From positions 62,001 through 126,000 of the forward strand of contig NZ_HG942077.1 in assembly GCF_000612665.1 (NCBI RefSeq): a stretch of DNA of 64,000 nt. Direction: 5' to 3'. Below the pieces are notes generated by a model. That model searched no databases. It saw only the letters and a program-made list of their open reading frames with translations, and had not been told where the DNA came from. The translations under genes and the position numbers were made by a program. Origin of the DNA: Neobacillus dielmonensis. Its GTDB lineage: Bacteria; Bacillota; Bacilli; Bacillales; Cytobacillaceae. Shown here piece after piece: positions 15,675 through 44,448 of this stretch; position 1 is the stretch's first letter, and the number at the start of each line of letters is the position of its first letter.

Positions 15675-18239
15675 TTGAAGAGACGTTCTATAAAAACTAA
15701 AGTAATAACTTCGGCATTAGCATTGCCTCTGCTGTTAAGCGGTGTTTCAAGTGCATCGGCAATTGACGTTCAGAAACATAAACCTGTTAGTAAGGCAGGA
15801 ATCCAACTAGAATACCTTGATAGAGGTTTGGTCGCTGCCCAAACTTCCGAGGGTATATTCTTAAGCTGGAGATTATTAGCCAATGAAGTAAAAGGTTCTT
15901 CGGAAACTGGACTAACAGGCGTTAATTTTAAAGTTTACCGTGACGGCAAATATGTCGCGACGGTCGAGGACAGTACGAACTTTTTAGATAAAGAAGGTAC
16001 TTCCGCTTCCAACTATTATGTCAGGTCATTTTTGGATGGGAAAGAACTCGACCAAAGCGCCACCATTAAACCTTGGCAACAATCTTATGTGGATTTAAAA
16101 CTGAATAAGCCTGCCGACGGGGTAACCCCTAAAGGTGAGGCCTATACTTACTCTGCCAATGATATGAGTGTCGGTGATGTTGACGGGGACGGACAATATG
16201 AATTTTTTGTCAAATGGGATCCTTCCAATTCTAAAGATGTATCACAAAAAGGTTATACCGGGAACACCTATATTGATTGCTATAAAATAGATGGCACTCT
16301 ATTATATCGAATTGACCTTGGCGTCAATATCCGTTCCGGTGCCCACTACACGGAATATTTAGTTTATGATTTCAATGCTGACGGAAAGTCTGAAGTGATG
16401 TTCAAAACGGCCCCAGGTACAAAAGTTATCAAATATGATCAGGACGGAAAAGTTATCTCTGAAAAGTTTATTACCATGCCGCAAAAAGATATTGATGCAG
16501 GATACAGCAATCAAGATGATTATCGGATGAGTACAGAAGATTATTATAATCATGTCGTCAACATGTTTATGAATTGGCACAAACAAGAAGAGGTGGTAAA
16601 AGGAAATTGGCCAAGTTCGCTAGAAGAAGCGTTCGGTATTGAACCCAAATATAAGTATCCTCTATCGGAACAGGATGCCAAAAGCTTAGCCGATTACTTT
16701 ATGGACGTATATGCCCCAAGCCGAAGCGGCAACAATAAATTAAGAGAGTTTGAAGGTTTTATTTTAGAAGGTCCGGAATATTTAACGGTTTTCAATGGTG
16801 AAACAGGCGAGGAAATGGATACGATCGATTACAAACCTGGCAGATATGATGACGGTCTGATGTGGGGCGACTATGCCATGGCAAGAATTGAACCAGGCAA
16901 CCGTGTCGACCGCTACCTTGCTAGTGTTGCCTATCTTGATGGTGAGAAACCATATGCTGTTTTTGCGCGCGGCTATTATACCAGGGCCAATGTGGTTTCC
17001 TATAGCTGGGACGGAAAACATTTGAAAGAACATTGGGCAGTGGACAGTGGCTGGACTCCAATGAGCAATCCTTTTAACGACGGACCGCACGGCAAAGATG
17101 GCACCAATCCGGTATTTGGAACGCTGACTACGCAAGGGGCTCACTCCTTGAGTGCAGCAGACGTCGATGGTGACGGTAAACAAGAGATTGTCTATGGTGC
17201 GGCAACCATTGACAATGACGGTAAAAGTTTATTATACAGTTCCATGGATACCATGCCTCCGCAAAGTGCCGCACCTGGCACCACTGCAAGATTGGGCCAT
17301 GGGGATGCGTTGCATGTAACCGATATCGACCCGAACCGGCCTGGGTTGGAAATCTTTATGGTACACGAAGGAGCTGCGTACGCACCCTACGGCTACTCCC
17401 TGCGTGATGCTAAAACAGGTGAAGTCATTTATGGCGGCTATACCGGAAAAGATACCGGCCGCGGTATGATTGGAGACGTGGACCCTTCACATCCTGGTTT
17501 AGAAACATGGGCGGTTGGACTTTGGACGGCCGATGGCACTAAAATCAGTGATAAGGCCCCCGGGTCCAACATGAACATTAAATGGGCTGCCGACATGACG
17601 ACGCAAATTGTCAATGGATCAGGGAATTCAACTCCTACGATTGATGACTGGAAAAAAGGCACAGTGCTTAAAGCAGAAGGAACAAGGACCAATAACAGCA
17701 CAAAGGGAAATCCAAGTTTAGTGGCTGACGTGTTTGGGGATTGGCGTGAAGAATTGCTGGTAAGAACGGCCGATAGTTCCGCCATTCGGATGTATTTCAG
17801 CACAGATGTCACCAATCACAAATTATACACACTGATGCATGATCCTCAATACCGTGCTGAAGTGGCAAGGCAAAATACAACCTATAACCAACCTTCCTAT
17901 ACAAGTTTTTATTTTGGAAGTGATATGGACTTTTCAAAAGTTCCTGTGCCGACTTACTGGACACCAGGCTTATTATCCTACTTAGAGAACGAAATGAGTA
18001 AGTATAAAGATAGTGGCGAATTATCAGGGCCTCTTTGCAGCCAGCTTGAAAATTCTCTCAAACAAGCCGAGCACCACGTAGAAAAAGGTTCCGTTACACA
18101 AGCTGTTAAGTTTGTCGAGAAGTTCATATCGGAGCTTGAGCAGAAAAACAATCAAGAATATATATCATCTGAAGCGAAGCTTAACTTGACACATAAAGCC
18201 CAACTAGTAATCGATTTACTCAGCAAAACGAACCAATAA
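15675..18239 (+). CDS. yesW: Secreted rhamnogalacturonan endolyase, PL11 (YesW-like) with FIMAH-like tail
   Basis: An 854-residue exported enzyme that cuts the RG-I backbone by beta-elimination. Residues 1-29 are a signal peptide. The catalytic part shows the PL11 pattern: EYLDRGLVAA, SVGDVDGDGQYEFFVKWDPSN, the repeated D.DGD Ca2+-binding loops of an eight-bladed propeller, and DVFGDWREELLVRT. B. subtilis YesW has about 620 residues. The excess comes from insertions (near residues 250-330) and a helical C-terminal stretch, residues ~768-854, that resembles the FIMAH domain of Bacillus exoenzymes (SGPLCSQLENSLKQAEHH). The start is a TTG behind GAGGAGGG. It has a cre site and its own terminator. 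Confidence 0.93.
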   Translation: MKRRSIKTKVITSALALPLLLSGVSSASAIDVQKHKPVSKAGIQLEYLDRGLVAAQTSEGIFLSWRLLANEVKGSSETGLTGVNFKVYRDGKYVATVEDSTNFLDKEGTSASNYYVRSFLDGKELDQSATIKPWQQSYVDLKLNKPADGVTPKGEAYTYSANDMSVGDVDGDGQYEFFVKWDPSNSKDVSQKGYTGNTYIDCYKIDGTLLYRIDLGVNIRSGAHYTEYLVYDFNADGKSEVMFKTAPGTKVIKYDQDGKVISEKFITMPQKDIDAGYSNQDDYRMSTEDYYNHVVNMFMNWHKQEEVVKGNWPSSLEEAFGIEPKYKYPLSEQDAKSLADYFMDVYAPSRSGNNKLREFEGFILEGPEYLTVFNGETGEEMDTIDYKPGRYDDGLMWGDYAMARIEPGNRVDRYLASVAYLDGEKPYAVFARGYYTRANVVSYSWDGKHLKEHWAVDSGWTPMSNPFNDGPHGKDGTNPVFGTLTTQGAHSLSAADVDGDGKQEIVYGAATIDNDGKSLLYSSMDTMPPQSAAPGTTARLGHGDALHVTDIDPNRPGLEIFMVHEGAAYAPYGYSLRDAKTGEVIYGGYTGKDTGRGMIGDVDPSHPGLETWAVGLWTADGTKISDKAPGSNMNIKWAADMTTQIVNGSGNSTPTIDDWKKGTVLKAEGTRTNNSTKGNPSLVADVFGDWREELLVRTADSSAIRMYFSTDVTNHKLYTLMHDPQYRAEVARQNTTYNQPSYTSFYFGSDMDFSKVPVPTYWTPGLLSYLENEMSKYKDSGELSGPLCSQLENSLKQAEHHVEKGSVTQAVKFVEKFISELEQKNNQEYISSEAKLNLTHKAQLVIDLLSKTNQ

Positions 18240-23575: not shown

Positions 23576-23595
23576 GTGCGGATGTCCCCCGTAGA

Positions 23596-24293: not shown

Positions 24294-26900
24294 TTAAACT
24301 CCTTTCGGAAATGATTCAACCTGTTTCACAGTTCTATTTTGTAGTAGAGTGTCCCCAATAAATTCAATACACATAATCGCATTTAACGACCATTGTGAAA
24401 TCGTATTAGTGGTTACCCATGGTAGTTCATGGATTGGTCGAATCACTTCATCTTCTTTTACTAATACTGTTTCTTCATTAATAGATGATTTTCCTACTCT
24501 ATCATTCAATAATATGGACCATGCTAATTCTGAAAGCTCTTGGTTATTTTTTTTCATGGCAGCATAAGCAGTAATACCAGTTGAGAACATGGGCCAACCA
24601 TAACTGCCGCGTTTAAATTCTACGGACGTAGAACGAACCTTTTCTTCCCACGGAAGATTATAAAACTCGCCTATTTCGATTAACATCTCTTCCCATTCAG
24701 GATCATCGATTAATGGTGAAAGCTCGAACCATACCTGTGGCTCACCCATACAAATTGCTAAGTGTCCCCCAGCAAAATTCCCTATATCATAAATTTTTCC
24801 GGTTTTAGGATCATAACCATAGGCAGCTAATGCCTTCATTTTAAGTGGCATCTTTTTTAAACAGTCAATACCCGTCAAAATTTTGTCTCGATACTCCGTA
24901 TCCTCATATCGCTCCCAGCGGGTCATCCAATTCGATACAAAAGCAGCCCAATCCGGTCCAATTCGAGTGTGCGTCGGATGATCGTCTTTCGGAAAATAAG
25001 CCCGCATCGGATCAAGATTAACAGTGGTGTAATCGGCGTTCACCACTTCATCCATAATGTCGCCAATGCGCTCATCAGCTGTCAAATAATAATAGAATCG
25101 GTGGAGGCCAGCCATCGCAATCCTTGCTTCTTTACAGCCACAGCCCCAGTGGATAACATTATGCCTCGACCCGAGACCGGCGTATTCACCCATATGATAG
25201 ACATCCACCTCGCTTGTATGACGGGTCATTGCTTCCGCCATACGGAAGATATCGGATCTTCCTGACCGTAAGAACATGTACCAAAGCCACATGTTCGGCA
25301 CCAATTCGGTATTTTGCCATGCATAGCCGCCAATATCATAACGCCACGTGTGCCTTACATGATCATAGGTATGCATGACATCCCCATAGTTCCAGAATCC
25401 ATACCACCGTCTTTGTTCCACCTCTTTTTGGTAGAAATCAATCGTCTGATCCAGTTTTTCTTCTATTTCTTGTAGTGCTGGTGTACAGTGGTCTTCCAAA
25501 CTCCATTCACCAAAAGCCTTTACCTCATGGTAATATTGCGGTTCGCACACTAATAATGCCGGGTTCTCTTTATCACTGTTCCATTGCAGCAGTTCGCCAT
25601 GTGCTGGTGTACGATCGAAGCAATGAATAACAAGCTCACTAGTATTGGCAATCCCATAAGGCGTGCTGCGCATTTCTTCAAATCCTTCATAAGAGGATTT
25701 CAAATGCGTTTCTGTATCATAATGGCGAAGATCCATTGTCTCTCCATCCGGTGACCAAAACCATGCCTTTAATTCTGCTGTATCTTCTGCCATACCGCTG
25801 ACTTCCAGAGAAGAAGGATATCTTTTCCAGAAATTCCTAACTCCTGTTGCAAGCCCTCCACTTTCACTGCCTACAAAGATGGTTCCACCAGCACGATGGC
25901 CAACAGCCGCATGCAGCCAGCTACACCCTGTTTTCGTTTGTTTGGACAGACAATAGCTGTCCGCTGACTGCTGCACCAGTTTAAACCGGTCCCAAACGGC
26001 GGCATCATCCAAGATGTCGAGAAACTTCTCATCCTGATTTTCATCAAAGGTAATAAAGGTACCAGACTGTTGCTTTTTAAATAACTCTTCATATTTTCCT
26101 ACTGTCCGCATGGTTGCCAGATTCTTAGGCGTCTCGCTAAACAAACCGGTATCACCGACTAAACGGACATGACGATTATATAAAGGACCTTTCATCGGTA
26201 TAGAAAAGGACATGCCCAATCCTTTAATGTAATCTTCATGCGGATTGCCGTTGTAGATAATGGTATGATTGATTTTAATCGATGCTTGATTCACATAGAA
26301 ATAGAATCGTAATGTAAAAGGAATCCAGAGTCTTCCCCCATTTACTCGCTCATGTCTGCCCTCTACCTTTACTGTACAGCGGATCGGGCCATCTTGTTCA
26401 ACCGCTACTCGAGAAATATGACTGACAAAGTCCTCCTCTTTCTTGATGCGGTAACCCGTCGTTTGACTTCTTTCTTCCCGAATCAGGTTTAAGTGGCTTC
26501 CTGTGCATATGACTCTATTTTCCCGGGTGATTTGTTTAATAATGGTATTACCGTGTTTATTCAATTGGCACATGATACTGCCAGTATCAATTTCTATGTA
26601 TTCTTCGGATTCTTTAACGGTCAGGGTGCAATCCGAAACTTCGCATATTCCTAGTTTCATTTTGTATTGGTCTTCCACTTTTCCATCAAAAGACGCAGCA
26701 TGCGCTGTCCACTTAACACTTCCATCCGGCCAAAATGCAGTGGGCCATGTTTGGATTGGCTGCGGCTTCCCTTGTTCGTTGACCAACACCAGCTGATCCT
26801 GTCGTGAAAGAAAACCCCGTTTCCATGGGACTCCCCATGTTACCCCCGTTATTCCTGACGATTGTTGATCCAGCCATTTCAGATTGATATGAGATGTCAT
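24294..26900 (-). CDS. yetA: Exo-rhamnogalacturonan lyase-type protein, PL26 (YetA-like)
   Basis: An 868-residue cytoplasmic protein matching B. subtilis YetA in length. The N-terminus (about 1-90) is the RIFT-barrel part (GVTWGVPWKRGFLS, WPDGSVKWTAHAASF). The middle and C-terminal parts form an alpha/alpha-barrel with conserved aromatic clusters (RRWYGFWNYGDVMHTYDH, WLWYMFLRSGRSD, HNVIHWGCGC). This arrangement is that of PL26 enzymes such as the Penicillium exo-RG lyase, which remove unsaturated galacturonosyl-rhamnose from the reducing end. It follows the LplABC-type transporter genes in the operon, as expected for processing of imported oligosaccharides. Confidence 0.88.
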   Translation of the reverse strand: MTSHINLKWLDQQSSGITGVTWGVPWKRGFLSRQDQLVLVNEQGKPQPIQTWPTAFWPDGSVKWTAHAASFDGKVEDQYKMKLGICEVSDCTLTVKESEEYIEIDTGSIMCQLNKHGNTIIKQITRENRVICTGSHLNLIREERSQTTGYRIKKEEDFVSHISRVAVEQDGPIRCTVKVEGRHERVNGGRLWIPFTLRFYFYVNQASIKINHTIIYNGNPHEDYIKGLGMSFSIPMKGPLYNRHVRLVGDTGLFSETPKNLATMRTVGKYEELFKKQQSGTFITFDENQDEKFLDILDDAAVWDRFKLVQQSADSYCLSKQTKTGCSWLHAAVGHRAGGTIFVGSESGGLATGVRNFWKRYPSSLEVSGMAEDTAELKAWFWSPDGETMDLRHYDTETHLKSSYEGFEEMRSTPYGIANTSELVIHCFDRTPAHGELLQWNSDKENPALLVCEPQYYHEVKAFGEWSLEDHCTPALQEIEEKLDQTIDFYQKEVEQRRWYGFWNYGDVMHTYDHVRHTWRYDIGGYAWQNTELVPNMWLWYMFLRSGRSDIFRMAEAMTRHTSEVDVYHMGEYAGLGSRHNVIHWGCGCKEARIAMAGLHRFYYYLTADERIGDIMDEVVNADYTTVNLDPMRAYFPKDDHPTHTRIGPDWAAFVSNWMTRWERYEDTEYRDKILTGIDCLKKMPLKMKALAAYGYDPKTGKIYDIGNFAGGHLAICMGEPQVWFELSPLIDDPEWEEMLIEIGEFYNLPWEEKVRSTSVEFKRGSYGWPMFSTGITAYAAMKKNNQELSELAWSILLNDRVGKSSINEETVLVKEDEVIRPIHELPWVTTNTISQWSLNAIMCIEFIGDTLLQNRTVKQVESFPKGV

Positions 26901-26997: not shown

Positions 26998-28539
26998 TTA
27001 CTTTTTCGTTTTGGAGTATAGTTGATTCATTTCTTTTGTCACTTGGTCTCCACCTTGGGATTTCCACTGCTCGATTGCGGCTTTTAGGCCGGCCTTGTCG
27101 ATTTGTCCGGAAATGTACTTAATTCTTGCGTCGTCAATAATTTGATCAAGTTGGGCTCCCATACGGCTATATGTCTCTGAAATCAATCCTGCAGCCGGGT
27201 TGCCCACTACATATTTTTCGTTTTCCTTTTGAATTTCTGCCTCTTTTTCTCTTAATGGTGTTTGTTGTGGTTTAATTGTTAAATCCTCAGGGATAAACGT
27301 TTGAAACTGGTTCAAATCCTGCAGGTCCTTCAGCACCGTCTTATCAGTAGTTGCAACAACATAGCCATTACCATCTAATGTGTACTGTTTGCCTTCAATC
27401 CCATGGAATAATAATCTTTGATTTTCTTGATTATTGGTTTGGTCGATGAATTTAAGAACTCTTTTCAATTCTGCTTCTGTTTTAACGGCAGGTTTCGGAA
27501 TTAACAAAAGATTACTAAATCCCGATGTTGGCAGATAATGCTTTTTCCCATCCGGATCAGCCACTCCTCCAAGAGCCGTCATAAAAGTTTTTTGTTCTTG
27601 CTGTTCGGCAGTTGAATTTTCACCAAATTCAAGCTTATCGAGCTCTTTTTCGATTCTGTGCGCGGAATCCACAACGTCCACAATGACCCCTGCTTTATTA
27701 TTTTGAATATCGTCGTACCATTTCGACGGAGGCATGGCGGCAAAATCTTTGTTGATGAGACCTTCATCAAATAGCTTTTTGAAGTAATCCAGTGCTTCTT
27801 GATATTCAGGGAATTCAAAATACGGTTTTAATTTCCCCTTTTCCACTCCCCATTCGTTCGGGACACCAAACCAAGTTTGGATGTTATCCCATGGACCACT
27901 GAATTGAGAAACCGTCATGCCATACGTATCATCTTTACCATTTCCATCTGGGTCATCATTTTTAAACGCAACGAGTATCTTGTATAAGTCATCAGTGGTT
28001 TTCGGTTCTTGTAATCCTAGTTTGTCTAACCAGTCTTTTCGGATCATGATACCGTTTCTTCCCAGTGCTCTTATTCTTGGAATCCCGTATAATGTTCCGT
28101 TTATGGAAGCATTCTGCCTAATAATCGGGTTCAATTTCTTTAAATTAGGGTAATCATCTATGTATTTGCCTACATCCCAGAATTCCCCGGATTGTGCAGC
28201 TTTCACGTAGCTACTTGCCGAAACCATGATGTCAGGCAAATCTCCGGAAGCCAGCGTAATGCTAAATTTGTCGGGATAGGTGTCATTCGGGGTCCATCTT
28301 AAATGGATATCTGTATTCGTTTCCTCTTCCAGTTTCTTCACAACCGTACTATTTTCGTCTGCTAGTTCTTGATCAAAGGAAGGCATCATAATCGTAATAT
28401 CGAGTGGTTTGTTACTATCACTTTCACCACCCTTTTTACTTTTAGTACTTGCTGCTTCGTTGTTAGAACAGCCAGCAGTAATTCCAGCGACCAATAGACT
28501 TGAGACAACCACCGGTAATGCGCGTTTCATTAACTTCAT
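26998..28539 (-). CDS. lplA: LplA-type solute-binding lipoprotein of an oligosaccharide ABC transporter
   Basis: A lipoprotein of about 513 residues that captures RG oligosaccharides at the membrane. A lipobox (VAGITAGC) follows a Lys-rich signal sequence. The ligand domain resembles B. subtilis LplA/YtcQ (GIPRIRALGRNGIMIRKDWLDKLG, DPDGNGKDDTYGMT). The open frame begins at 28587, but the ATG at 28539 lies behind the GGGGGAA site and starts the signal peptide correctly. The permeases LplC and LplB lie directly upstream. No ATPase is nearby, so a shared MsmX-type ATPase must energize it. Confidence 0.92.
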   Translation of the reverse strand: MKLMKRALPVVVSSLLVAGITAGCSNNEAASTKSKKGGESDSNKPLDITIMMPSFDQELADENSTVVKKLEEETNTDIHLRWTPNDTYPDKFSITLASGDLPDIMVSASSYVKAAQSGEFWDVGKYIDDYPNLKKLNPIIRQNASINGTLYGIPRIRALGRNGIMIRKDWLDKLGLQEPKTTDDLYKILVAFKNDDPDGNGKDDTYGMTVSQFSGPWDNIQTWFGVPNEWGVEKGKLKPYFEFPEYQEALDYFKKLFDEGLINKDFAAMPPSKWYDDIQNNKAGVIVDVVDSAHRIEKELDKLEFGENSTAEQQEQKTFMTALGGVADPDGKKHYLPTSGFSNLLLIPKPAVKTEAELKRVLKFIDQTNNQENQRLLFHGIEGKQYTLDGNGYVVATTDKTVLKDLQDLNQFQTFIPEDLTIKPQQTPLREKEAEIQKENEKYVVGNPAAGLISETYSRMGAQLDQIIDDARIKYISGQIDKAGLKAAIEQWKSQGGDQVTKEMNQLYSKTKK

Positions 28540-28593
28540 TCCATTTTCCCCCTTTGTTTTTTGAAAAGAAATAAATCCAACTGCCATGTCCCC

Positions 28594-29475
28594 TTAGCTT
28601 TTAACCGATCCTAGCAACACCCCCTTAGTGAAGTACTTTTGTAAGAACGGATAGACTAAGAGAATTGGGACAGTTCCTACGGCAATCGTTGCCATTTTAA
28701 CGGTTTGTGCTGGCGGTTCTACAAAGTTAGGATCCAAACGATCCCCAGCAGCCACAACATTTTGGGACAATGCCACCACTTGCCTTAAAATAACTTGCAG
28801 CGGCCATTTTTCCGGACTATTAATATAGAGCAGCGCTGCCGTAAAGTCGTTCCAGTGCCCTACTGCATAGAATAGGGAAAAGGTTGCGAGAATGGGCTTG
28901 GATAAAGGCAAATAAATTCTCCAGAGAACCCCCAATTCATTACATCCATCAATACGTGCTGCATCTTCGAGCTCCTTAGGCAGTTCTTGAAAGAAGTTTT
29001 TGACAATGATCAGGTTAAACGCACTGATGGCACCTGGGATCATCAATGCCCAATAAGTGTCTAGCAAGCCAAGGCCTTTTACGACCATATAGGTTGGAAT
29101 CATGCCGCCACCAAACAACATCGAAAAGATCACTAAGCCAAGAATTTTATTTCTGCCTCTTAAATCTCTCCTGGACAGTGGATAAGCCATTGTCATGGTA
29201 AAAAACATATTCACCAGTGTACCAATTATGGTTACATAGACTGAAACACCAAGGCTTCTAACCAAGGAACCATTAGAGAAAATATACTCGTAGGCATCCA
29301 TTGAAATCGTCTTTGGTATAATAAAAAAGGCTCTTGACCTTAATTCCGCATCTGTTGCAAACGAACCCGCGATAATATAGATAAATGGCAGCACCGTACA
29401 TACTGCAAACAAAATCAAGATGACGTAATTTAAACAATCAAAAATTTTGCCGCCTGTTGAATTCCACTTCCTCAT
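28594..29475 (-). CDS. lplC: ABC transporter permease, LplC/YtcP type
   Basis: A 293-residue inner membrane permease with about six transmembrane helices. The EAA loop, which docks to the ATPase, is visible as ELEDAARIDGCNELGVLWRIYLPL. Residues 1-30 contain the lead typical of carbohydrate (CUT1) permeases. It lies between LplB and LplA with short gaps (12 bp to LplB), and a strong AAGGGGG site precedes it. It forms a heterodimer with LplB. Confidence 0.93.
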   Translation of the reverse strand: MRKWNSTGGKIFDCLNYVILILFAVCTVLPFIYIIAGSFATDAELRSRAFFIIPKTISMDAYEYIFSNGSLVRSLGVSVYVTIIGTLVNMFFTMTMAYPLSRRDLRGRNKILGLVIFSMLFGGGMIPTYMVVKGLGLLDTYWALMIPGAISAFNLIIVKNFFQELPKELEDAARIDGCNELGVLWRIYLPLSKPILATFSLFYAVGHWNDFTAALLYINSPEKWPLQVILRQVVALSQNVVAAGDRLDPNFVEPPAQTVKMATIAVGTVPILLVYPFLQKYFTKGVLLGSVKS

Positions 29476-29487
29476 GTTTGATCCCCC

Positions 29488-30459
29488 TTAGTAAAGTCCC
29501 TCTTCGCCAAATTTCTTGGCCAGTTTATTCGCACCCAATACAAGAATGATAGAAATGATTGACTTAAATAATCCAACCGCCGTTGCAAAGCTGAATTGCC
29601 CGCTAGTTAAACCTATGTAGTAAACGTAGGTATCGAAAACATCCGCAACCGAACGGTTTAACGAGTTACTCATCAGATAAATGTGTTCAAAGCCATTGTC
29701 CAAGAAATGTCCCAGTTTAAGAATTAACAAGATGACAATCGTACTTCGAATAGCTGGCAAGGTAATATGCCAGAGCTGCCGCCATCTTCCGGCACCATCC
29801 ATCATAGCCGCTTCATACAATTCTGCATTCACACCTGTCAAAGCAGCCAAGATGATAATGGTGCTCCATCCGGTTGTCTGCCAAACGGTTTGAATAATAA
29901 TTAAGGGTCTAAACCATTGGGGATCCGTTAAAAATGGAATCGTATGACCGGTTACATTTTTGACAATTTCATTGATATAACCGCCGCTTGTCGTAAAAAA
30001 CACATAGGTCATACTGGTAACTACTACCATCGATATAAAGTGTGGAACATATATTAACGTTTGAATGCCTCTTTTTACGAGTGCGTTTTTCAATTCATTT
30101 AGCATCAAGGCAACGATAATCGGTAATGGAAAGACAAGGACCAAATTTAAAAACGATAAAATTAAGGTATTTTTAAATAACCGCAAGAAATCAGGGCTTT
30201 GGAAAAAGAATTTGAAATTATCGAGTCCTACCCATTCACTATGCCAGAAACCCAGAAACGGCTGATAGTCTTGAAAGGCGATCAACACACCCCACATGGG
30301 CAAATACTTAAAAAGCAGAAAGTAAAGTAGACCTGGAGCAACTAAGAGATACAACCACTTATCTCTTTTTAAACTTTGAAACAATGCTGACCTTTTGTTT
30401 GGTTTTACAATCAATGCCGGTTCACTCATTGCTTCTAGTGAAGAACTTGCATCTTTCAC
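29488..30459 (-). CDS. lplB: ABC transporter permease, LplB type
   Basis: A 323-residue membrane permease that starts at a GTG behind AGGGGGAG. After a 35-residue cytoplasmic lead come about six helices and the EAA loop ELYEAAMMDGAGRWRQLWHITLPAI. The phrase LPMWGVLIAFQDYQPF is typical of LplB/YtcP-linked transporters for complex plant sugars. It works with LplC and the lipoprotein in uptake of RG-derived oligosaccharides. It follows the GH2 gene in the same operon. Confidence 0.93.
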   Translation of the reverse strand: MKDASSSLEAMSEPALIVKPNKRSALFQSLKRDKWLYLLVAPGLLYFLLFKYLPMWGVLIAFQDYQPFLGFWHSEWVGLDNFKFFFQSPDFLRLFKNTLILSFLNLVLVFPLPIIVALMLNELKNALVKRGIQTLIYVPHFISMVVVTSMTYVFFTTSGGYINEIVKNVTGHTIPFLTDPQWFRPLIIIQTVWQTTGWSTIIILAALTGVNAELYEAAMMDGAGRWRQLWHITLPAIRSTIVILLILKLGHFLDNGFEHIYLMSNSLNRSVADVFDTYVYYIGLTSGQFSFATAVGLFKSIISIILVLGANKLAKKFGEEGLY

Positions 30460-35173: not shown

Positions 35174-36679
35174 TTATTTGGTGATTAATGCATACGCTTC
35201 TTGTAGAAGAATTTCTGCTGTATCCTGATCAATATGCTTTCCTGATTGTGCCTCTATTTCATGGATAAAAGAAGTTAGGTTGTGATCTTTTAGTTTCATC
35301 TGGAGGCTGTTGGCGATTCCATCATTATCTATTTTTCCGTCTTGGTCGAAGTATGTCACTAGTTCCTGTAAGGAAATAATGGGATCTTGGTCAGCAAGGT
35401 AGCCTAATCCGTATTTAGAAAGAGGACTAGTTGGTACAGCACGCATAAATGAAACTTCAGGTAAGCTGCCGTCCGCTTTTCTAGGTGAAGATAATTGGGC
35501 CACATCCAGACTTACAACATCTTTTGCAGTAATTGGAAGACCACCATCGATGGTCCATGAATTATTCGCTAGATTTTCTGCCGGTGTTTTATCATAGTCT
35601 ATATTATCGGTTAATGTACCGATATAAGAGATATTATTGTGTAAAACCTCTCTGTAACCTGGGATGTTGTTTATATCAGTCGGGTCAACGCGCTCTAGCA
35701 TATTGAAGTTCGCACCATAAGAAAGGCCATTGTTATAGGCCGTGTTATTCGTCCAGTTAGCTGATTGCCCTGGCATATGGTTCGCATAAAAGCCATTGGC
35801 CCCGTTATTAACAGCCAAGCAATATCTAACGGTATGAAGTGGCATGGGGTCTGGAATTCCAGTTGTCCGATATGTATATCCGCCGACCTTGAACCCATTT
35901 TTGTCTCCGATGCCATTCTGATTACCTTGATTATTAAAAGACCAGTCATGGTCATAAGTTACTGGACCATTTGAACTGAGACTTTCAAATCCATCATCAC
36001 TGTTATTCCATGCACGGGAGTTAATGAACCAAACGGCATCTCCATGTGCTCCAAAACCATCTGTATTGGAGGCTGACACATCTGTTGGCCCAATGTTGTT
36101 ATAAGCATCAGAATTTAGAACAATTCCCGTTCCATGTCCAGTAAAGTTAAAGCCATTCGCTTCATTATCATGGGCAGCCATATTCTCGAAATCAGCTTGA
36201 CCCCTAATTCTAAAAGCTTCCGATTGCTTTTGGTTCCCTACTTTAACGCCTGTCACCTCAAAACCTTTAAATTTGATACCGGTTACGCGATCTTCCACAA
36301 AAAAGGCAGCGACCCGTAAATTAGTGGGTACATTTCTGAAGTCAAAGACAGGTCTTTCTCCAGGATAAGCTTCATAGGTGATTCCACTTTTTTTAATATC
36401 ATGTACGTAATTATAATCTTTATCTGTCTTTGCAATTTTGAAATCATCATAAATTCCACCACGAATATATACGGTATCCCCAGAGGAGGCTGCTTCTTGC
36501 GCTTTCATCACACTTTTAAATAGAGCTTCTTTCGTTCCTGGATTGCTATCATTACCAGTCGGCGAAATGTAGTAGGCATCCTGAACATCTGATGTGATTT
36601 CATCTGCGTTAACTGCGGTGGTCATAAACAACGAGGCCAACATACAACCGCTCAAAAACATGCTCCCTATTTTTTTCAA
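35174..36679 (-). CDS. Secreted pectate lyase, PL9, with FIMAH-like tail
   Basis: About 501 residues, exported by a signal peptide ending near VNA-D. The main part is a PL9 parallel beta-helix that starts YYISPTGNDSNPGTKEA and carries NGFKVGG (the catalytic lysine of PL9, K271 counted from the frame's first ATG) and the Ca2+-site segments DGFGAHGD and NNSDDGFES. The last 70 residues form a short helical tail resembling the FIMAH domain. The TTG at 36679 follows GAGGAG and gives a proper signal sequence. The catalytic part is nearly the same as in the larger gene upstream, indicating a tandem duplication. Confidence 0.9.
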   Translation of the reverse strand: MKKIGSMFLSGCMLASLFMTTAVNADEITSDVQDAYYISPTGNDSNPGTKEALFKSVMKAQEAASSGDTVYIRGGIYDDFKIAKTDKDYNYVHDIKKSGITYEAYPGERPVFDFRNVPTNLRVAAFFVEDRVTGIKFKGFEVTGVKVGNQKQSEAFRIRGQADFENMAAHDNEANGFNFTGHGTGIVLNSDAYNNIGPTDVSASNTDGFGAHGDAVWFINSRAWNNSDDGFESLSSNGPVTYDHDWSFNNQGNQNGIGDKNGFKVGGYTYRTTGIPDPMPLHTVRYCLAVNNGANGFYANHMPGQSANWTNNTAYNNGLSYGANFNMLERVDPTDINNIPGYREVLHNNISYIGTLTDNIDYDKTPAENLANNSWTIDGGLPITAKDVVSLDVAQLSSPRKADGSLPEVSFMRAVPTSPLSKYGLGYLADQDPIISLQELVTYFDQDGKIDNDGIANSLQMKLKDHNLTSFIHEIEAQSGKHIDQDTAEILLQEAYALITK

Positions 36680-36718
36680 AAAAATTTCTCCTCTCGTCAA
36701 TCGATTTTATTCAAGCTG

Positions 36719-36790: not shown

Positions 36791-39700
36791 CTAACGGGTA
36801 TAAAATTCAGAAAGCTGTTCGTCTGTCAGTGGATATCCCGGTTTATCTTCAAATCCCATGACATATGCCTTCAAAGTTTCCTTTTGCTGCACATCCACCG
36901 TTAAGTCCGTTGTGAATGTAACAGTTTGTGTACCTTCTATTGTGTTATCAATTTGCTCATTTGCATAGGCAGTGCCTTTTAACTCGCCATTGGCCTTATG
37001 GATTTCGACAATTCCCCGCCCATAGGTGGATAAGTCACCTTGTTTTGTCACAGTCATCGATACTATTTTTCCATTTGCATCCAAAACTACGTTTTCGATG
37101 GCTAGCGGATATTTATGAGTAACTCCAGGTACATATGGCTTGGGGTACGCACTATTTGGTGCCGGTCCTAAACTTGTGATGGAATCAGGAACCGTATAGG
37201 GAAGTTCATCTCTTACACCCTCCAATAGACCTGCTAATACTTTTGCTTGCGGTGTTTCAGGATGATCATTCACGATAGCTTTAACACCATCAAAAAACAG
37301 TTTCGCAAAATTGTCCGCACCTGCATCATTCGGATGAGTGCCGTCTACCTTCTCGCCTTGCATTCCCCTAAAATAGTAATCTGTACTCTTGGCTGTTTTC
37401 CCCAAAGCTTCACAAAGCTGCGAATACCATGAGAGTGTTGGTGCATTTAGGTCAACAAAGGCAATATCTGTTGCGCCTGCAGCCACTTTCTCTTCCACAT
37501 ATTGTTTTCCAATCGTAGAAAAACCGTCTAAAGTAGAAGACCATGTGTTTGCTGCCGCATTGTATTGATAGGCATTATGCCGATCTACTGGGCCTACAAT
37601 AATGAAATTAGCTCCCTTACTGTGAACATAATCATAGTAATAGGAAATGCCATTATAGTAACCTGTTGGACCGTCCGTTTTATGATTGTGTCCAAACTCA
37701 AAGTAGATAAAATCGCCAGGCTTAATCCGATCTTTAAACTGATTAAAATGTTTGATACTACTATAGTTATTCAATCCGCTTTCTGCATGATTAGATACGG
37801 CAATATCTTGGCCAATATATTTAGACAGCGCTTGCCCTACACCTGAATAGTTTTGAAGCCTAAAATAAGGAAGTGGAGCTAATTGGTCATTCACGGTAGA
37901 GTCACCAAGAACCCAAAGAGTTTTACCTTGCTTCATCTGCATAATTTTAGCAGAAGAAATGGCGGCATTTTCCCCGCTTACGGCAATATTCAGCATCGTA
38001 TCTACATATGTCCCCGTTACCTTGGAATACACATCTTGAACATTTACATTAAATTCATAGGTCAAACTAGTACCTGCAGGAATCACCTTTTCGGTTAAAA
38101 GAAAATGCCTTTTTTCAGAAAACAAATTGACTTTAGCATCCTTGCTTTGATCAGCACCCGTTAAAGTAACTTTAACTTTATAATAGGTATTTGGTGTAAC
38201 ATTAACGGCAAATCGAATTGGCATATCCGGGTCTGTAACAGCCACTGCATCCTCATCGGCAGTTTTCGGATTTGGTTTTGAAACGTCTTGAAGCTTAATC
38301 TCTTGTCCTTCTTGCATGACAAATCCGTCACTTCGATTATCCTCTTTGTAGCCATCGGGTCCCAATCCTAAAAAGCCATACCCTCTATCCGCTGTGTAGG
38401 CTAAATTGGAAGGTACACCTGTATAACCATTTGCCACATTTTTAGCAGAGCCGAAGTCGAACCTCCAGATTTTGGATTCCTTGTTGAGCTGGTCAGCAAG
38501 GTAACCTAAGCCTTCTTTGTAAGGTTGACTGGAAGTGACTGGACGCATAAAGGAAACATCAGGTAAACTGCCATCTTCTTTTCTAGGTGCAGATAATTGG
38601 GTGATATCCAGACTTTCAAAATCTTGATCTTTAATGTTAAGACCCCCATTGATGTTCCAAGAATTGTTCGTCATATTTTCTGCCGGCGTCTGAGCATTGT
38701 CGATGTTTTCGATTAATGTCCCCTTATACGAGATGTTATTGTGCAAAACTTCTCTGTAACCAGGGATGTTGTTTATGTCCGTTGGACTAACACGTTCTAG
38801 CATATTAAAGTTGGCACCATAGGAGAGACCATTATTATAGGCCGTGTTATTGGTCCAGTTTGCTGATTGCCCTGGCATATGATTTGCATAAAAGCCATTG
38901 GCGCCATTGTTTGCAGCTAAACAATATTGAACCGTATGGAGTGGCAGTGGATCTGGGATTCCAGTAGTGCGATAAGCATACCCGCCGACTTTAAACCCAT
39001 TTTGGTCGCCTATTCCATTTTGATTACCCCGGTTATTAAAGGACCAGTCATGGTCATAGATTACCGGACCTTGTGAACTGATACTGTCAAATCCATCATC
39101 GCTGTTATTCCATGCACGGGAGTTAATGAACGAAACAGCCTCCCCATGTGCTCCAAAACCATCTGTATTGGAGGCTGATACATCGGTTGGTCCAATATTG
39201 TTATAAGAATCCGTATTTAGAACCGTTCCTGTCCCGTGGCCGGTATAGTAAAAACCGATTGCTTCATTATCATGGGCAGCCATATTTTCAAAATCGGCTT
39301 GCCCCCTAATTCTAAAGGCTTCGGATTGCTTTTGGTTTCCTACTTTAACACCAGTGACATCGAACCCTTTAAATTTGATACCGGTTACACCATCTTCCAC
39401 AAAAAAAGCCGCCACACGTAAATTAGTGGGTACATTTTTGAAGTCAAAGACCGGTCTTTCACCAGGATAAGCTTCATAGGTGATCCCGCTTTTATAAATA
39501 TCATTTACATAATTATAATTACTATCGTTTTTTGCAATTTCAAACTCATCATACACTCCACCGCGAATATATACGGTATCCCCGGAAGAAGCCGCTTCCT
39601 GCGCTTTCTTCATACTTTTGAATGGCGCTTCTTTCGTTCCTGGATTGGTATCACTGCCGGTTGGAGAAATGTAATAACTTGTTGGACCTGTTGGAACAGT

Positions 39701-40285
39701 TGGCGTATCTGAACCTGGTGACGTAATCCAATTCGTATAATCACTCGGGTTCTGGCTGCCTGTGGTTAAGTATATTTGCTTAATGGCAAAGCCATCTTCT
39801 CTCACCCATAGATTGAGGTCATGCAATCCCGCTTTGTCGACAACTAATGGCCCTAACTGGTTCCAAGTAAAATTACTCGTGCCTTTGAGCCCTTTCCAAA
39901 CTTTCCACCCTCCATCCAGACCAAGATGAATGGAATCACTGGATGTATCCGGCGCCTGGGCTAGCACCCACACATTATAAGTTCCCGGAGTGTCAAAATT
40001 GATTTTATAAGTGAGTCCAGGTGCATTCCCATTGAGGTTGTTGGTATCTGTCCAATATTTACCATTATTAGGGCTTTGTAAGGCTCCATCTTCCTCTGTC
40101 CAAGTATGTCCAGACACATTCGTGACTTTCGCGATATTCGAATTTTGTAGTGCTATATTGCTATCAAATCCAATCTGTCCATCCTTCACATTTAGTGTAA
40201 TTTCATCATCTGCATAAATGGCTTTTGGCATAAACATAGAAATAAGCATACAACCAATCAGAAACAAACTCCCTATTTTTTTCAA
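36791..40285 (-). CDS. Secreted PL9 pectate lyase fused to a CE12-type GDSL acetylesterase
   Basis: About 1164 residues. Numbering from the frame's first ATG (40339): signal peptide 19-43, a carbohydrate-binding-like beta-sandwich at 46-195 (FDTPGTYNVWVLAQAPDTSS), a Thr/Pro linker at 207-221, PL9 at 221-616 with NGFKVGG (K450), then a beta domain at 625-800 as found before RG acetylesterases. An SGNH esterase follows at 805-1025 with GDST at 813, GHNH at 883 and DGTH at 999, then a C-terminal beta domain. The enzyme would cut de-esterified homogalacturonan and remove acetyl groups from RG-I on one chain. The TTG at 40285 suits the ribosome site GGGAGGGG. Confidence 0.9.
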   Translation of the reverse strand: MKKIGSLFLIGCMLISMFMPKAIYADDEITLNVKDGQIGFDSNIALQNSNIAKVTNVSGHTWTEEDGALQSPNNGKYWTDTNNLNGNAPGLTYKINFDTPGTYNVWVLAQAPDTSSDSIHLGLDGGWKVWKGLKGTSNFTWNQLGPLVVDKAGLHDLNLWVREDGFAIKQIYLTTGSQNPSDYTNWITSPGSDTPTVPTGPTSYYISPTGSDTNPGTKEAPFKSMKKAQEAASSGDTVYIRGGVYDEFEIAKNDSNYNYVNDIYKSGITYEAYPGERPVFDFKNVPTNLRVAAFFVEDGVTGIKFKGFDVTGVKVGNQKQSEAFRIRGQADFENMAAHDNEAIGFYYTGHGTGTVLNTDSYNNIGPTDVSASNTDGFGAHGEAVSFINSRAWNNSDDGFDSISSQGPVIYDHDWSFNNRGNQNGIGDQNGFKVGGYAYRTTGIPDPLPLHTVQYCLAANNGANGFYANHMPGQSANWTNNTAYNNGLSYGANFNMLERVSPTDINNIPGYREVLHNNISYKGTLIENIDNAQTPAENMTNNSWNINGGLNIKDQDFESLDITQLSAPRKEDGSLPDVSFMRPVTSSQPYKEGLGYLADQLNKESKIWRFDFGSAKNVANGYTGVPSNLAYTADRGYGFLGLGPDGYKEDNRSDGFVMQEGQEIKLQDVSKPNPKTADEDAVAVTDPDMPIRFAVNVTPNTYYKVKVTLTGADQSKDAKVNLFSEKRHFLLTEKVIPAGTSLTYEFNVNVQDVYSKVTGTYVDTMLNIAVSGENAAISSAKIMQMKQGKTLWVLGDSTVNDQLAPLPYFRLQNYSGVGQALSKYIGQDIAVSNHAESGLNNYSSIKHFNQFKDRIKPGDFIYFEFGHNHKTDGPTGYYNGISYYYDYVHSKGANFIIVGPVDRHNAYQYNAAANTWSSTLDGFSTIGKQYVEEKVAAGATDIAFVDLNAPTLSWYSQLCEALGKTAKSTDYYFRGMQGEKVDGTHPNDAGADNFAKLFFDGVKAIVNDHPETPQAKVLAGLLEGVRDELPYTVPDSITSLGPAPNSAYPKPYVPGVTHKYPLAIENVVLDANGKIVSMTVTKQGDLSTYGRGIVEIHKANGELKGTAYANEQIDNTIEGTQTVTFTTDLTVDVQQKETLKAYVMGFEDKPGYPLTDEQLSEFYTR

Positions 40286-40603: not shown

Positions 40604-41376
40604 CTAAAGTATTGACTGTTTTTTTAAATAATCTACCGTGTTTTGTGCTGCTTCTTCGCCACATTCATTATATGCTGCTTGATGATAATGAAATGGATCC
40701 TTCATTAAGCCTCTTTCCGCCATCGTTTTTAGACATGTAGAAACGAGAGTCATGTCGCCAAAGTCTGAATCCATATTGGTTTGTGCTTCTTGGATAGGTA
40801 AATACAAGGCTTGATCATCGCGGTGATGGCCGATTTGGAGCAGGAAGATATGTTCAACACCATGTTTTTTGATTTCATCAAAGGTTATTCTTATCATCGA
40901 AGCGTATTTTTCAGGCGGCGTTTTGAAATCGCCATCCGATTCGCCTTGGAGCCAAAGCAAATAAATATGGCCAACCCGAATATTATTTTCCATTAGCCAA
41001 GACTTGGCTTTATCCAAACGATTAAGCAAATCTATTAATAATGGTTGACCTGGCTGCCACTGCGCGATCATTGATCCGCCTTTGCTAGCTGAAACACCAA
41101 TTATTTTTCTCCTGCTTAGCTCGTAATACTTTTAACAAAGCTCGAAACAAGACTTTCCGTTTTCTTGTTGGGCTCGTAGATACCCTCAGAATTATTTTCA
41201 GCAGCGCCAAACGGTTCAACCATTTTGTACAGTCTAGTTGGATCAGAGATGGCACGAAATTCAAAAACCATATTTCCGCAGATATAAGGTGCCTTTTCTG
41301 CTTCGCCCCGGCCTGCCATATTGGATTGACCCCCAAAAACAAACAGATCATAACTTTCCATGTAATGCTCCCTCAT
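40604..41376 (-). pseudogene. Frameshifted SASA-type (sialate O-acetylesterase-like) esterase
   Basis: Two frames make up one carbohydrate acetylesterase of about 250 residues. The first part (41376-41116) carries the nucleophile motif FGGQSNMAGRG. The second (to 40604) carries GVSASKGGSMIAQWQPG, WLQGESDG and the catalytic Asp/His segment DPFHYHQAAYNE. A single-base loss near 41130 (in the codons after SSFVKS) shifts the frame. Restoring one base gives a continuous YYELSRRKIIGVSASKGGS. It follows DUF2264 and GH88 in one operon. It is either a recent mutation or a sequencing error. The rest of both parts appears undamaged. Confidence 0.82.
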
Positions 41377-41383
41377 AACGAAA

Positions 41384-43261
41384 CTATTTCATTGAAAAAA
41401 CGAGTTCTTCATTGGCTAGAATGACTTTTAGATTATCTTCATTATATCGAACAACAGGTTTTTGTTCCCATTTTCCCCTGGCATATTGCAAATCTGGATG
41501 TGCATAGACACCCGTTAAGAGCCAATGAGTTCCTTCAGTCAATGTAACCTCTAAACCTGGCAAAGCGGTCATTTCTGGCGTCATCAAATTGGTATTGGGC
41601 AGGCAATTCACTAATGCCGCATGGCGCTTTTTCACCCATGACAAATCCACGATACCGGTAAGGCCTTTTGGACCCATATAATAATTCTCATTGTCTTGAA
41701 CGGTAGATGTGCCCGGTAAATCAGGATTATTCTCCACAGCAAAACCCGTTTCGTATAAAACAGCTGGCTCCTTTAATTCCACTTTATGAATCCGAATTTG
41801 CCAGCCAGATATACTTGTCAGCCAAGTACGAACAGAAATCGTTTGGGACGCTTTCCAAGTTGAAGCCACAATGCCTTTGCTGACCTTGACGTCTGTTATT
41901 TTATTACGGACTAAAAATTGCCCCGTTTCTTCAATGGTTTCCCCGCTACGATTTGTTAAAATGGTCAGGTCTGGGGTTTGCACCCCAAGCATTGAATCCA
42001 TCGCGTGTTCTTCTTTGAGTTGATTCGTGCGTGGGATAGAAAAGCCAAAGTAACTGGAATAAGCAAACTTCAAATATTTCTCATTTGTTAATGTTTGATA
42101 GTTAGCCCCGGGTTGACCAGCATTTAAAAGTTGCGCATGTCCATTGTCATGCACGGCCAGCATGTTTGCCCTATTCAATACTTTCAGTGCTTCCACTTCT
42201 GGGTACGCACTTTCCTCGACTGTCCAGTATTCATGATCATCAGGTAAAGCCAATAGTAGAAATACCTTGTTTGACCAATAGGGTGACAACGAACTGTTGT
42301 ATGGTTCCGTCAGCGTCAATTGCGGGTAAGTATATCCAAGAGATAATATTCCATTATCATCAAAAATCGGTTTTTCCATCCACCAACGAAGATGTCGGTT
42401 GATAATTCCTTTTAACGCACTTAGAGGAAAAGCTTGAACATCAGCGTAAACTAACGCAGACCAGAATGATGCTGCCGCATAGCGATAGATCATGCTTCGG
42501 CCAAAGGCGATATTCGCTCCATCTTCCGCAAAGAAATGAATATATTGCTGCGCAAACTCCTTTGCACGCACACGGAACTCGTCACTATGCCAATCTTCTG
42601 GAACTAACGTACTGTAGATCAAACCATAATAATGAAAAGCAAACGGTGTGTAATAATCTTGACGTCCTCGAGTGCTGTCTTGATACCAGCCATCAGCCAA
42701 ATAGCATTTATCAATTTTAGTAAGAGGCACGTCAATGCATACGTCCGGAATTTTATAGCCTAAAGCTCTTAACACTAGACTCACAATGACTTTAAAGAAT
42801 TGCCAATTTCCATCCGCACATTCATGCTCGTTAATTTGGAAAAGCCAGTTATAGACATTTTGTTTTTCGTATTCTGTTAACCTTTTCCAAATTAATTGGT
42901 TATTATATAAAAGCGATAAGGCAACAGCCGGCATCTCTACCATGCGTTGGTCGCGATCATGAAGTTGGCCCCAGTATTCTTCATGATTTGGGTTCGTCCC
43001 ATTGCTAATCCCATGAATAATCGGATGCACTAGGTCCTCTACTTCCGCATTTCCTATCGCTGGACCTAAGCCCCACAACAAACGGGAGAACCCCTCAAAG
43101 CTGGCGATGCGGCTTCCGTACCCAACCCCGTTTGCACCGTACTTGATACTCGCGTTTCCCTTTGAAAAGTAGGTTGTCAGCGGACGATTGATTCTATTAA
43201 ATAAGTCGAGATACTCTTTTTTATTGGTTAATCCTAACTCCTTATGATTCATTATTAACAC
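41384..43261 (-). CDS. DUF2264 family protein
   Basis: About 625 cytoplasmic residues of the DUF2264 family. Signature segments include YGANGVGYGSRIASFEGFSRLLWGLGPA, split here over residues ~37-63, then HDRDQRMVEMPAVALSLLY and HECADGNWQFFKVIVSLVLRALG. The N-terminal half looks like an alpha/alpha barrel. Members accompany GH88 and GH105 genes in plant and algal polysaccharide loci; activity is not established, but a lyase or hydrolase on a uronic acid sugar is suspected. The frame opens at 43327, overlapping GH88, but a GGAGTGA site favours the GTG at 43261. Confidence 0.85.
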   Translation of the reverse strand: MLIMNHKELGLTNKKEYLDLFNRINRPLTTYFSKGNASIKYGANGVGYGSRIASFEGFSRLLWGLGPAIGNAEVEDLVHPIIHGISNGTNPNHEEYWGQLHDRDQRMVEMPAVALSLLYNNQLIWKRLTEYEKQNVYNWLFQINEHECADGNWQFFKVIVSLVLRALGYKIPDVCIDVPLTKIDKCYLADGWYQDSTRGRQDYYTPFAFHYYGLIYSTLVPEDWHSDEFRVRAKEFAQQYIHFFAEDGANIAFGRSMIYRYAAASFWSALVYADVQAFPLSALKGIINRHLRWWMEKPIFDDNGILSLGYTYPQLTLTEPYNSSLSPYWSNKVFLLLALPDDHEYWTVEESAYPEVEALKVLNRANMLAVHDNGHAQLLNAGQPGANYQTLTNEKYLKFAYSSYFGFSIPRTNQLKEEHAMDSMLGVQTPDLTILTNRSGETIEETGQFLVRNKITDVKVSKGIVASTWKASQTISVRTWLTSISGWQIRIHKVELKEPAVLYETGFAVENNPDLPGTSTVQDNENYYMGPKGLTGIVDLSWVKKRHAALVNCLPNTNLMTPEMTALPGLEVTLTEGTHWLLTGVYAHPDLQYARGKWEQKPVVRYNEDNLKVILANEELVFSMK

Positions 43262-43320: not shown

Positions 43321-44448
43321 CTACCAAATAAAAAGTTCTTTTTCCAATAAGCGAAGCAGTGCTTCTGTAAAGAAATAATCCGAATAGATGAGTGGCACTT
43401 CGTAAGTGGCAGGACGATGGTAGGCTTCCGTTCCGCCCCCAATAATTCCGTCTTCCTCTTCATTCCAATTCGCATATTTTTCTTCAATCGCTTTGAGCAT
43501 TCTGATGGCTGCTCTTTCATAATGGTCTTGTTCATCTATCAGCACCCATTTGGCGATTTCTAACAGGCCACAGGCGGCACAAAGTCCGGCACTTGTATCG
43601 TAGATTACCGGCATTTTTGGTGCACGAAAATCTACTAATGGGATATTATCGGTTTCATAGATATGTGCCATAAAGTAATTGGCAACACGTTTGGCAATGG
43701 AAAGGTAATATGGATCTTTCGTGTGATGATAACTTAAAGCAAAGCCGTAAATGGCCCAAGCGTTACCACGACTCCAAGCTGAGTCAGAGGAATACCCTTG
43801 ACCACCTATTAGCCCGATAAACTCACCAGAATTCGCATCAAAGCTTGCGATATGTCCGACTGACCCATCTTCACGAACGAGGTATTTAGCAACTGTGTTC
43901 GCATGTCGACGTGCTATTTTTTCGAAACGTGGATCCTTCGTTTGGGCTGTTGCCCAATAAAGCAAAGGGATGTTCATCATGCTATCGATAATGACCCAGC
44001 CAGGTTTCTGGTCATTCCAGGCAACCAAATAGTTTCCGTCCACATTAAAGCGGCCAGCTAATAAGTTCGCTGCATGCAACCCCGTTCGAAAGGCTTGTTC
44101 ATTGCCAGTTTCACGGTAATGGGCGACAGCCGTGTGAAGCCACATAAACCCAACGTCATGTTGAATATCACGAAACAGGTACAGCGCCTCATCTAAACGT
44201 TTTTCTTGGGCAATCGCGGCTTCCACAAATACATCATCACCTGTAGCATGCGCTAATTGCCAAAGAAGTCCGCCCCAAAAGCCATTGGTCCACCATTCAA
44301 TTCCGCGCTCTTTTGAAACATCTGTGTAACTTTCATTAAAGGGAATATAGGGAATGGCATTACCCAGCCGTTCAAGTTCCTTTTTTACTTTATTACTGAC
44401 AAGCTGAAGCTTCTCTTCAGCCCATCGCTTTGTATCTTCTGTTGCCAT
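43321..44448 (-). CDS. GH88 family unsaturated uronyl hydrolase
   Basis: A 375-residue cytoplasmic alpha/alpha-barrel enzyme. GH88 hydrolases remove the unsaturated uronic acid left by lyases, through hydration of its double bond. Motifs are IEWWTNGFWGGLLWQLA, IQHDVGFMW and WVIIDSMMNIPLLYWA (the two conserved Asp positions), and GYSSDSAWSRGNAWAIYGFALSY. It resembles unsaturated glucuronyl hydrolases more than the GH105 YteR/YesR type usual in pectin loci, so the substrate could be a glucuronate-containing side chain. It is the first gene of the operon with DUF2264 and the SASA esterase. Confidence 0.88.
   Translation of the reverse strand: MATEDTKRWAEEKLQLVSNKVKKELERLGNAIPYIPFNESYTDVSKERGIEWWTNGFWGGLLWQLAHATGDDVFVEAAIAQEKRLDEALYLFRDIQHDVGFMWLHTAVAHYRETGNEQAFRTGLHAANLLAGRFNVDGNYLVAWNDQKPGWVIIDSMMNIPLLYWATAQTKDPRFEKIARRHANTVAKYLVREDGSVGHIASFDANSGEFIGLIGGQGYSSDSAWSRGNAWAIYGFALSYHHTKDPYYLSIAKRVANYFMAHIYETDNIPLVDFRAPKMPVIYDTSAGLCAACGLLEIAKWVLIDEQDHYERAAIRMLKAIEEKYANWNEEEDGIIGGGTEAYHRPATYEVPLIYSDYFFTEALLRLLEKELFIW

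Follow-up and report, generated by a model that had tools for sequence, protein, structure and literature searches.

Does a secreted protein that joins a PL9 lyase to an SGNH-type esterase attack one pectic polymer or two? The question is raised by a gene in a 64,000-nucleotide stretch of Neobacillus dielmonensis DNA (contig NZ_HG942077.1, positions 62,001 to 126,000), hereafter called the window, in whose coordinates positions are given unless a locus is named. An earlier note on this DNA had proposed that the PL9 half acts on homogalacturonan and the esterase half on rhamnogalacturonan I (RG-I), so that one chain would attack the junction of both. Our analysis suggests instead that the gene probably encodes a secreted bifunctional RG-I depolymerase. 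RG-I is proposed as the substrate for both halves because the PL9 module groups with the RG-I lyase BT4170 and not with Pel9A, and because the window holds other RG-I genes.

The gene is a single uninterrupted frame on the minus strand, a strand that the earlier note left unstated, running from a TTG at 40285 to a stop at 36791 and encoding 1164 amino acids, within a frame that is open from 40339 to 36791. Translation probably begins at this TTG, the start also adopted in the earlier note, since a GGGAGGGG box lies upstream of it and a tandem paralog in the same locus likewise opens with LKKIGS behind AGGAG. The chain was divided into six parts:

40211..40285, minus strand: signal peptide, residues 1-25, recognized by eye
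39728..40210, minus strand: CBM6/35-like module, residues 26-186 (sub-threshold PF17829 match, AlphaFold2 model with Foldseek, 49% identical module in Paenibacillus sp. HB172176, locus L030)
38489..39682, minus strand: PL9 right-handed beta-helix lyase, nearest BT4170, residues 202-599 (PF22842, match to structure 5OLQ, tree)
37922..38476, minus strand: YxiM-type (galactose-binding) beta domain, residues ~604-788 (sub-threshold PF21254, match to structure 2o14)
37160..37921, minus strand: SGNH/CE12-like esterase domain, residues ~789-1042 (sub-threshold PF00657, match to YxiM, conserved blocks)
36794..37138, minus strand: C-terminal accessory beta domain, residues ~1050-1164 (present in P. phytohabitans, locus L029, and in L030; beta strands in a low-confidence model)

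A short proline-containing linker lies between the CBM6/35-like module and the PL9 helix. In Pfam, the PF22842 Pel9A-like beta helix was matched over residues 202-520 (E 8e-44, 150.5 bits against a cut-off of 25.2). The remaining profiles stayed below their curated cut-offs: PF17829 (GH115_C; residues 134-181, 23.0 bits against 24.1), PF21254 (AGA-YXIM_GBD; residues 607-638, 22.8 bits against 27) and PF00657 (Lipase_GDSL; residues 792-996, 21.4 bits against 23.6). PF21254 was above its cut-off in the relative L009, with 28.5 against 27. The model of the CBM-like module was of moderate confidence (predicted local distance difference test, pLDDT, of 61, with residues 1-41 under 50), and Foldseek placed CBM6/CBM35 chains at the top of the matches (E 2e-5 to 1e-4) in a list that ranged from E 2e-5 to 1e-3 with template modelling (TM) scores of 0.34-0.51 over the query, with other jelly-roll proteins lower down. 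The architecture described in the earlier note, one chain with a signal peptide, CBM-like module, PL9, SGNH esterase and accessory beta domain, was borne out in its domain order, its secretion signal and both of its catalytic sets.

In the PL9 module, D375, D396, D397, D400 and K432 align with the residues that bind calcium or act as the base in 5OLQ (BT4170) and in 1RU4 (Pel9A); the roles of the calcium-binding aspartates and of the catalytic lysine are described in a published study (PMC6627557). Among solved structures the best match was BT4170, with an E value of 1.1e-54 versus 5.4e-25 for Pel9A, and with 41% identity over 383 columns versus 33% over 341 columns. A tree of 16 rows placed the PL9 of the window protein and that of its paralog, together with nine relatives, on the side of 5OLQ, with a 100/100 split from 1RU4, whose side also holds three rows from two genomes of the phylum. 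The window PL9 shares with 5OLQ, and not with 1RU4, a QSExFRI block, an insertion after GGY that contains IPxxxPxHxV, and a GFYANH block. PF16380, a BT_4170-like C-terminal model, scores above its cut-off (32 versus 30) on part of the L029 PL9; on the L030 chain and on the window paralog its scores stay under the cut-off. BT4170, from Bacteroides thetaiotaomicron, is reported to be an outer-membrane RG-I lyase in two papers (PMC8787155, PMC8002723). The window PL9 resembles BT4170 in its helix, in its calcium aspartate and lysine positions and in several blocks that Pel9A lacks; it differs in its identity of 41%, in its active-site spacing, and in sharing its chain with a CBM-like module and with an esterase.

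The esterase half has kept S796 (GDST), G837, N867 (GHN), and D981 and H984 (DGTH), which are invariant columns in the subfamily and correspond to the usual SGNH blocks. A phmmer search of this half against solved structures returned YxiM of Bacillus subtilis (2o14) at E 2.3e-6 over residues 4-397 of the query, and the rhamnogalacturonan acetylesterase 1deo at 0.083. In YxiM and the CE12 rhamnogalacturonan acetylesterases, as in the window protein, a beta domain precedes the SGNH domain; the window protein is set apart from them by weak sequence similarity, an extra C-terminal beta domain and GHNH in block III.

The Pfam scan of the window covered 17 of its 40 frames of at least 150 amino acids and revealed further genes for pectin degradation around the fusion:

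35174..36700, minus strand: tandem PL9 paralog without an esterase, 84% identical over residues 203-599, with a FIMAH-like tail
24294..26900, minus strand: PcRGLX-type rhamnogalacturonan lyase gene (PF21345, PF21346, PF19501), also present in L029 and L030
19661..21490, minus strand: PL11 rhamnogalacturonan lyase gene (PF21348, PF18370)
15675..18239, plus strand: another PL11 gene, whose start resembles a signal peptide (by eye) and which ends in a FIMAH tail (PF21348, PF18370, PF22888)
43321..44448, minus strand: GH88/GH105-type unsaturated uronidase gene (PF07470)

We presume that the PcRGLX-type gene belongs to PL26 and the uronidase to GH105. Other scanned genes encode a GH2 protein, a DUF2264 protein, a SASA esterase and an AraC regulator, and the frames at 26998-30459 resemble, by eye, an ATP-binding cassette sugar transporter with its binding protein. 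Taken with this gene content, the position of the window PL9 nearer to BT4170 leaves the homogalacturonan substrate of the earlier note unsupported; the module probably acts on RG-I rather than on homogalacturonan, and the proposed attack on the junction of the two polymers would be replaced, with somewhat better than even confidence, by RG-I as the target of both halves.

Several smaller observations concern the same locus. In the tandem paralog the DDGFD of 5OLQ and of the other 10 window-type rows is replaced by DDGFE, the changed residue being a putative calcium ligand, and the C-terminal FIMAH match of this paralog lies just below the cut-off (24.5 against 24.8). At 22277-24285, on the minus strand, the interval from the PL11/DUF624 genes to the PcRGLX gene is occupied by a PL11-like propeller protein (weak PF21348) and by a DUF1961 gene. 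Just upstream of the fusion, the SASA-type acetylesterase gene (40604-41384, minus strand) appears to be disrupted: only positions 95-224 of 226 are covered by the profile match, its N-terminal part can be read by eye in a different frame, and a longer relative is found in P. phytohabitans (L029, 12081-12899). A scan of the window for transfer RNA genes found none.

If the reading of both halves is correct, the enzyme would be anchored to the wall by its CBM-like module, its CE12-like SGNH domain would take acetyl groups off RG-I, and its PL9 helix, similar to that of BT4170, would use calcium, and Lys432 as the base, to cleave the backbone between rhamnose and galacturonic acid by beta-elimination. 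Uptake of the oligosaccharides and their final breakdown would fall to other products of the locus, namely the transporters, the GH105-type enzyme, PcRGLX and PL11. The sequence shows a single chain with its catalytic residues preserved, the place of its PL9 among the subgroups, the content of the locus and an independent fused homologue, and from these each activity, the substrate and any synergy between the two halves are inferred.

A number of observations weigh against this reading. The active-site spacing counted from the first aspartate is 21/25/57 in 11 of 11 window-type rows and resembles neither the 31/35/70 of 5OLQ nor the 24/28/64 of 1RU4; because of this difference from BT4170, the window PL9 is, to judge by sequence, BT4170-like and not a BT4170 orthologue. 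The tree program warned of long branches, 5OLQ and 1RU4 among them, with possible distortion of the tree. No PF16380 match at 1e-3 was obtained in the PL9-esterase protein itself, and the NCBIfam PelN pectate lyase model matches it with 198 bits, far below the cut-off of 740. The CE12 assignment is based on weak scores; neither Pfam nor NCBIfam yields a CE12-specific match, for which reason we call the esterase CE12-like. The structural model of the esterase was poor (pLDDT 54), and its Foldseek search gave 19 matches at E <= 0.001, most of them to chains of beta domains or glycosidases and at very low TM scores; E. coli thioesterase I (1j00) and a rabbit sialic acid esterase (8f9r) were among the 19. 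Given the poor model, the fold search was not relied on as evidence for the esterase. A PL1 pectate lyase gene lies in the window at 448-1758, and there was no RG-I lyase among the 10 neighbours scanned around two Gracilibacillus genes and the G372 PL9 (5 in L019, 4 in L018, 1 in L020). We found no characterised enzyme within this PL9 subgroup of Bacillota, and an identity of 41% does not fix specificity. Finally PpPel9a, a homogalacturonan enzyme, is reported to have 42.5% identity to 5OLQ and 39.3% to 1RU4 (PMC6627557).

These points bear most directly on the alternative put forward in the earlier note, in which de-esterified homogalacturonan is the substrate of the PL9 half, as a pectate lyase, and RG-I that of the esterase half, so that the chain attacks their junction. 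We consider this possible but rather unlikely. In its favour, the characterised Paenibacillus PL9 enzymes, which share the family with the window protein, are reported as homogalacturonan enzymes: PpPel9a prefers this polymer (PMC6627557) and PelC is limited to it (PMC7267202). Since PpPel9a is nearer to 5OLQ and is nevertheless active on homogalacturonan, identity alone cannot tell the substrate of a PL9 enzyme. The PelN match, the PL1 gene and the neighbourhoods in Gracilibacillus and G372 point the same way. On the other hand, the reported PpPel9a residue numbers 202, 226, 230 and 271 correspond to a spacing of 24/28/69, the same as in two rows on the Pel9A side, where the range is 24/28/64-69. 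As this differs from the 21/25/57 of the window-type rows, PpPel9a appears to belong to another PL9 subgroup, and it was set aside as a proxy for the specificity of the window PL9. The grouping with BT4170 and the wealth of RG-I genes in the window likewise favour RG-I.

It is also conceivable that one half is a passenger, with either the esterase, which has GHNH for GHND, or the lyase inactive and the fusion serving as a binding extension. The sub-threshold esterase profile scores, a block III residue unlike that of distant relatives, and a tandem paralog that supplies an independent PL9 would fit such an arrangement, which we nevertheless regard as very improbable, as all SGNH blocks and all calcium and lysine positions of PL9 are kept. 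In addition, GHNH is found in every one of the five distinct close relatives in which the block is covered (L029, L030, L031, L023 and L024), free-standing esterases included. Here L031 is identical to L009, L030 to L035 and L029 to L036, and L024 lies within L032; L024 ends at the start of DxxH and was scored from the alignment, and L033, a sixth close relative, ends before block III. GHND was present in five more distant esterases caught by the motif filter (L003, L004, L005 and L008, all from the window's own genome, and L025) and GIND in two esterases of L034, in a table without rows for L006, L007, L014, L016, L024, L032 and L033. The contrast drawn in the earlier note between GHNH and the GHND of relatives therefore holds for distant relatives and fails for close ones, with which GHNH is shared, so that it is no oddity of the window protein. 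An artefact of assembly or a frameshift joining two neighbouring genes can practically be dismissed: P. phytohabitans does have the esterase and PL9 as separate neighbours, but in the reversed order, whereas the join at ~38.48 kb in the window is continuous and without a stop, and the same fused order in another assembly, that of Paenibacillus sp. HB172176, contradicts the assembly join at 38.4-38.5 kb that the earlier note had named as refuting its proposal.

The HB172176 protein (L030) is an independent fused homologue with 75% identity over residues 202-1135. Its frame is the same, letter for letter, as that of genome G1528 (L035), and the two are taken as one organism. Its CBM-like module is not N-terminal as in the window protein but is carried as an insert within the counterpart of the C-terminal beta domain, where L030:9585-10092 contains a CBM6/35-like module followed by the apparent first residues of a second copy. 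In P. phytohabitans (L029) the esterase and PL9 are adjacent separate genes, esterase first, each with its own signal-peptide-like start. PcRGLX genes occur near the homologues in both L029 and L030. Genes for a formylglycine-generating-enzyme-like (FGE-sulfatase) protein adjoin the esterase or fusion gene in both (L029:6921-7793 and L030:10245-11075); none was seen among the 17 window proteins scanned.

The esterase of Gracilibacillus orientalis starts, behind its signal peptide, with SYKEGQGYHADQ, which is close to the tail of the window PL9, PYKEGLGYLADQ; SYKEGQGYHADQLNKESK, which likewise follows the signal peptide, resembles PYKEGLGYLADQLNKESK of the window protein. Past the end of that esterase frame, another frame looks like a remnant of a CBM-carrying C-terminal domain. 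The Gracilibacillus PL9 has genes for a DUF2264 protein and a solute-binding protein beside it. We infer that the fusion may be older than this lineage and that Gracilibacillus may have lost the PL9 part, the PL9-tail relic being the sole point for an early fusion. The esterase tree left 5 of 5 inner branches without resolution and does not settle single versus repeated fusion. A more far-reaching suggestion, which we put forward as speculative and quite doubtful, is that these proteins represent an undescribed Bacillota PL9-CE12 class of RG-I enzymes, with an early fusion, later break-up and reshuffling, and a specificity of the GHNH esterase shifted as the coupled lyase needs, for example to another acetyl position. 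Break-up and reshuffling would be suggested by the free Gracilibacillus esterase with its PL9-tail relic, the split genes of P. phytohabitans, and the CBM, which is N-terminal in the window protein and inside the C-terminal domain in HB172176.

Prevalence was counted at strict cut-offs, with the two or three best candidates per genome scored in the larger samples. The window's own genome was the single case in its genus (1/61) and is included in the counts for the order (3/397), for the class with the esterase half (2/398) and for the phylum (6/398). Among Paenibacillaceae-type genomes, 13/394 were positive; one is fused (G1528), one has separate neighbouring esterase and PL9 genes (G1368), and in the remaining 11 the candidates that were scored include PL9 alone, which in one of these genomes is in two pieces. 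When 84,980 species genomes were scanned with the esterase alignment, 62 pattern matches and six confirmed loci were obtained, one of which is fused (L030). PF22842 was found in 13 of 14 chosen genomes and in 0 of 14 control genomes. A phage origin was rejected, as 0 of 168 pattern matches were confirmed when viral contigs were scanned with the esterase alignment. We regard the protein as real and rare, and as probably functional.

The earlier note knew of no described enzyme with this order of domains. This stands insofar as no PL9+CE12 chain was found in the open-access literature, which was covered in part (including PMC6339884, PMC7267202, PMC12037645, PMC2930009, PMC3413522, PMC7480376, PMC7235092 and PMC10440823). 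It needs qualification in that PL11+CE12 chains are described, namely Pamy_4308 (PL11|CE12|CBM37; PMC6339884) and Ruminococcus flavefaciens ORF03451 (PL11-Doc-CBM35-CE12; PMC2930009). Outside the window, the same contig of the genome holds a 1687-residue galactose-binding/SGNH/FN3/PL11 protein (L012:1109-6172, minus strand, contig C65), near which lies a GH106-type gene. All three chains resemble the window protein in joining an RG-I lyase to a CE12-type esterase; the window lyase differs in being a PL9, and the window esterase in belonging to the GHNH subfamily (GHND in L012). What is new here is the PL9+CE12 combination, the tie between an RG-I lyase and an acetylesterase being already known from PL11+CE12.

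With a BT4170-like PL9 and an acetylesterase in one chain, deacetylation and backbone cutting of RG-I become testable together. The protein also offers a lead that a Bacillota PL9 subgroup ordinarily read as pectate lyase may act on RG-I, and as 13 of 394 Paenibacillaceae-type genomes carry this subgroup, the specificity of one member would bear on all.

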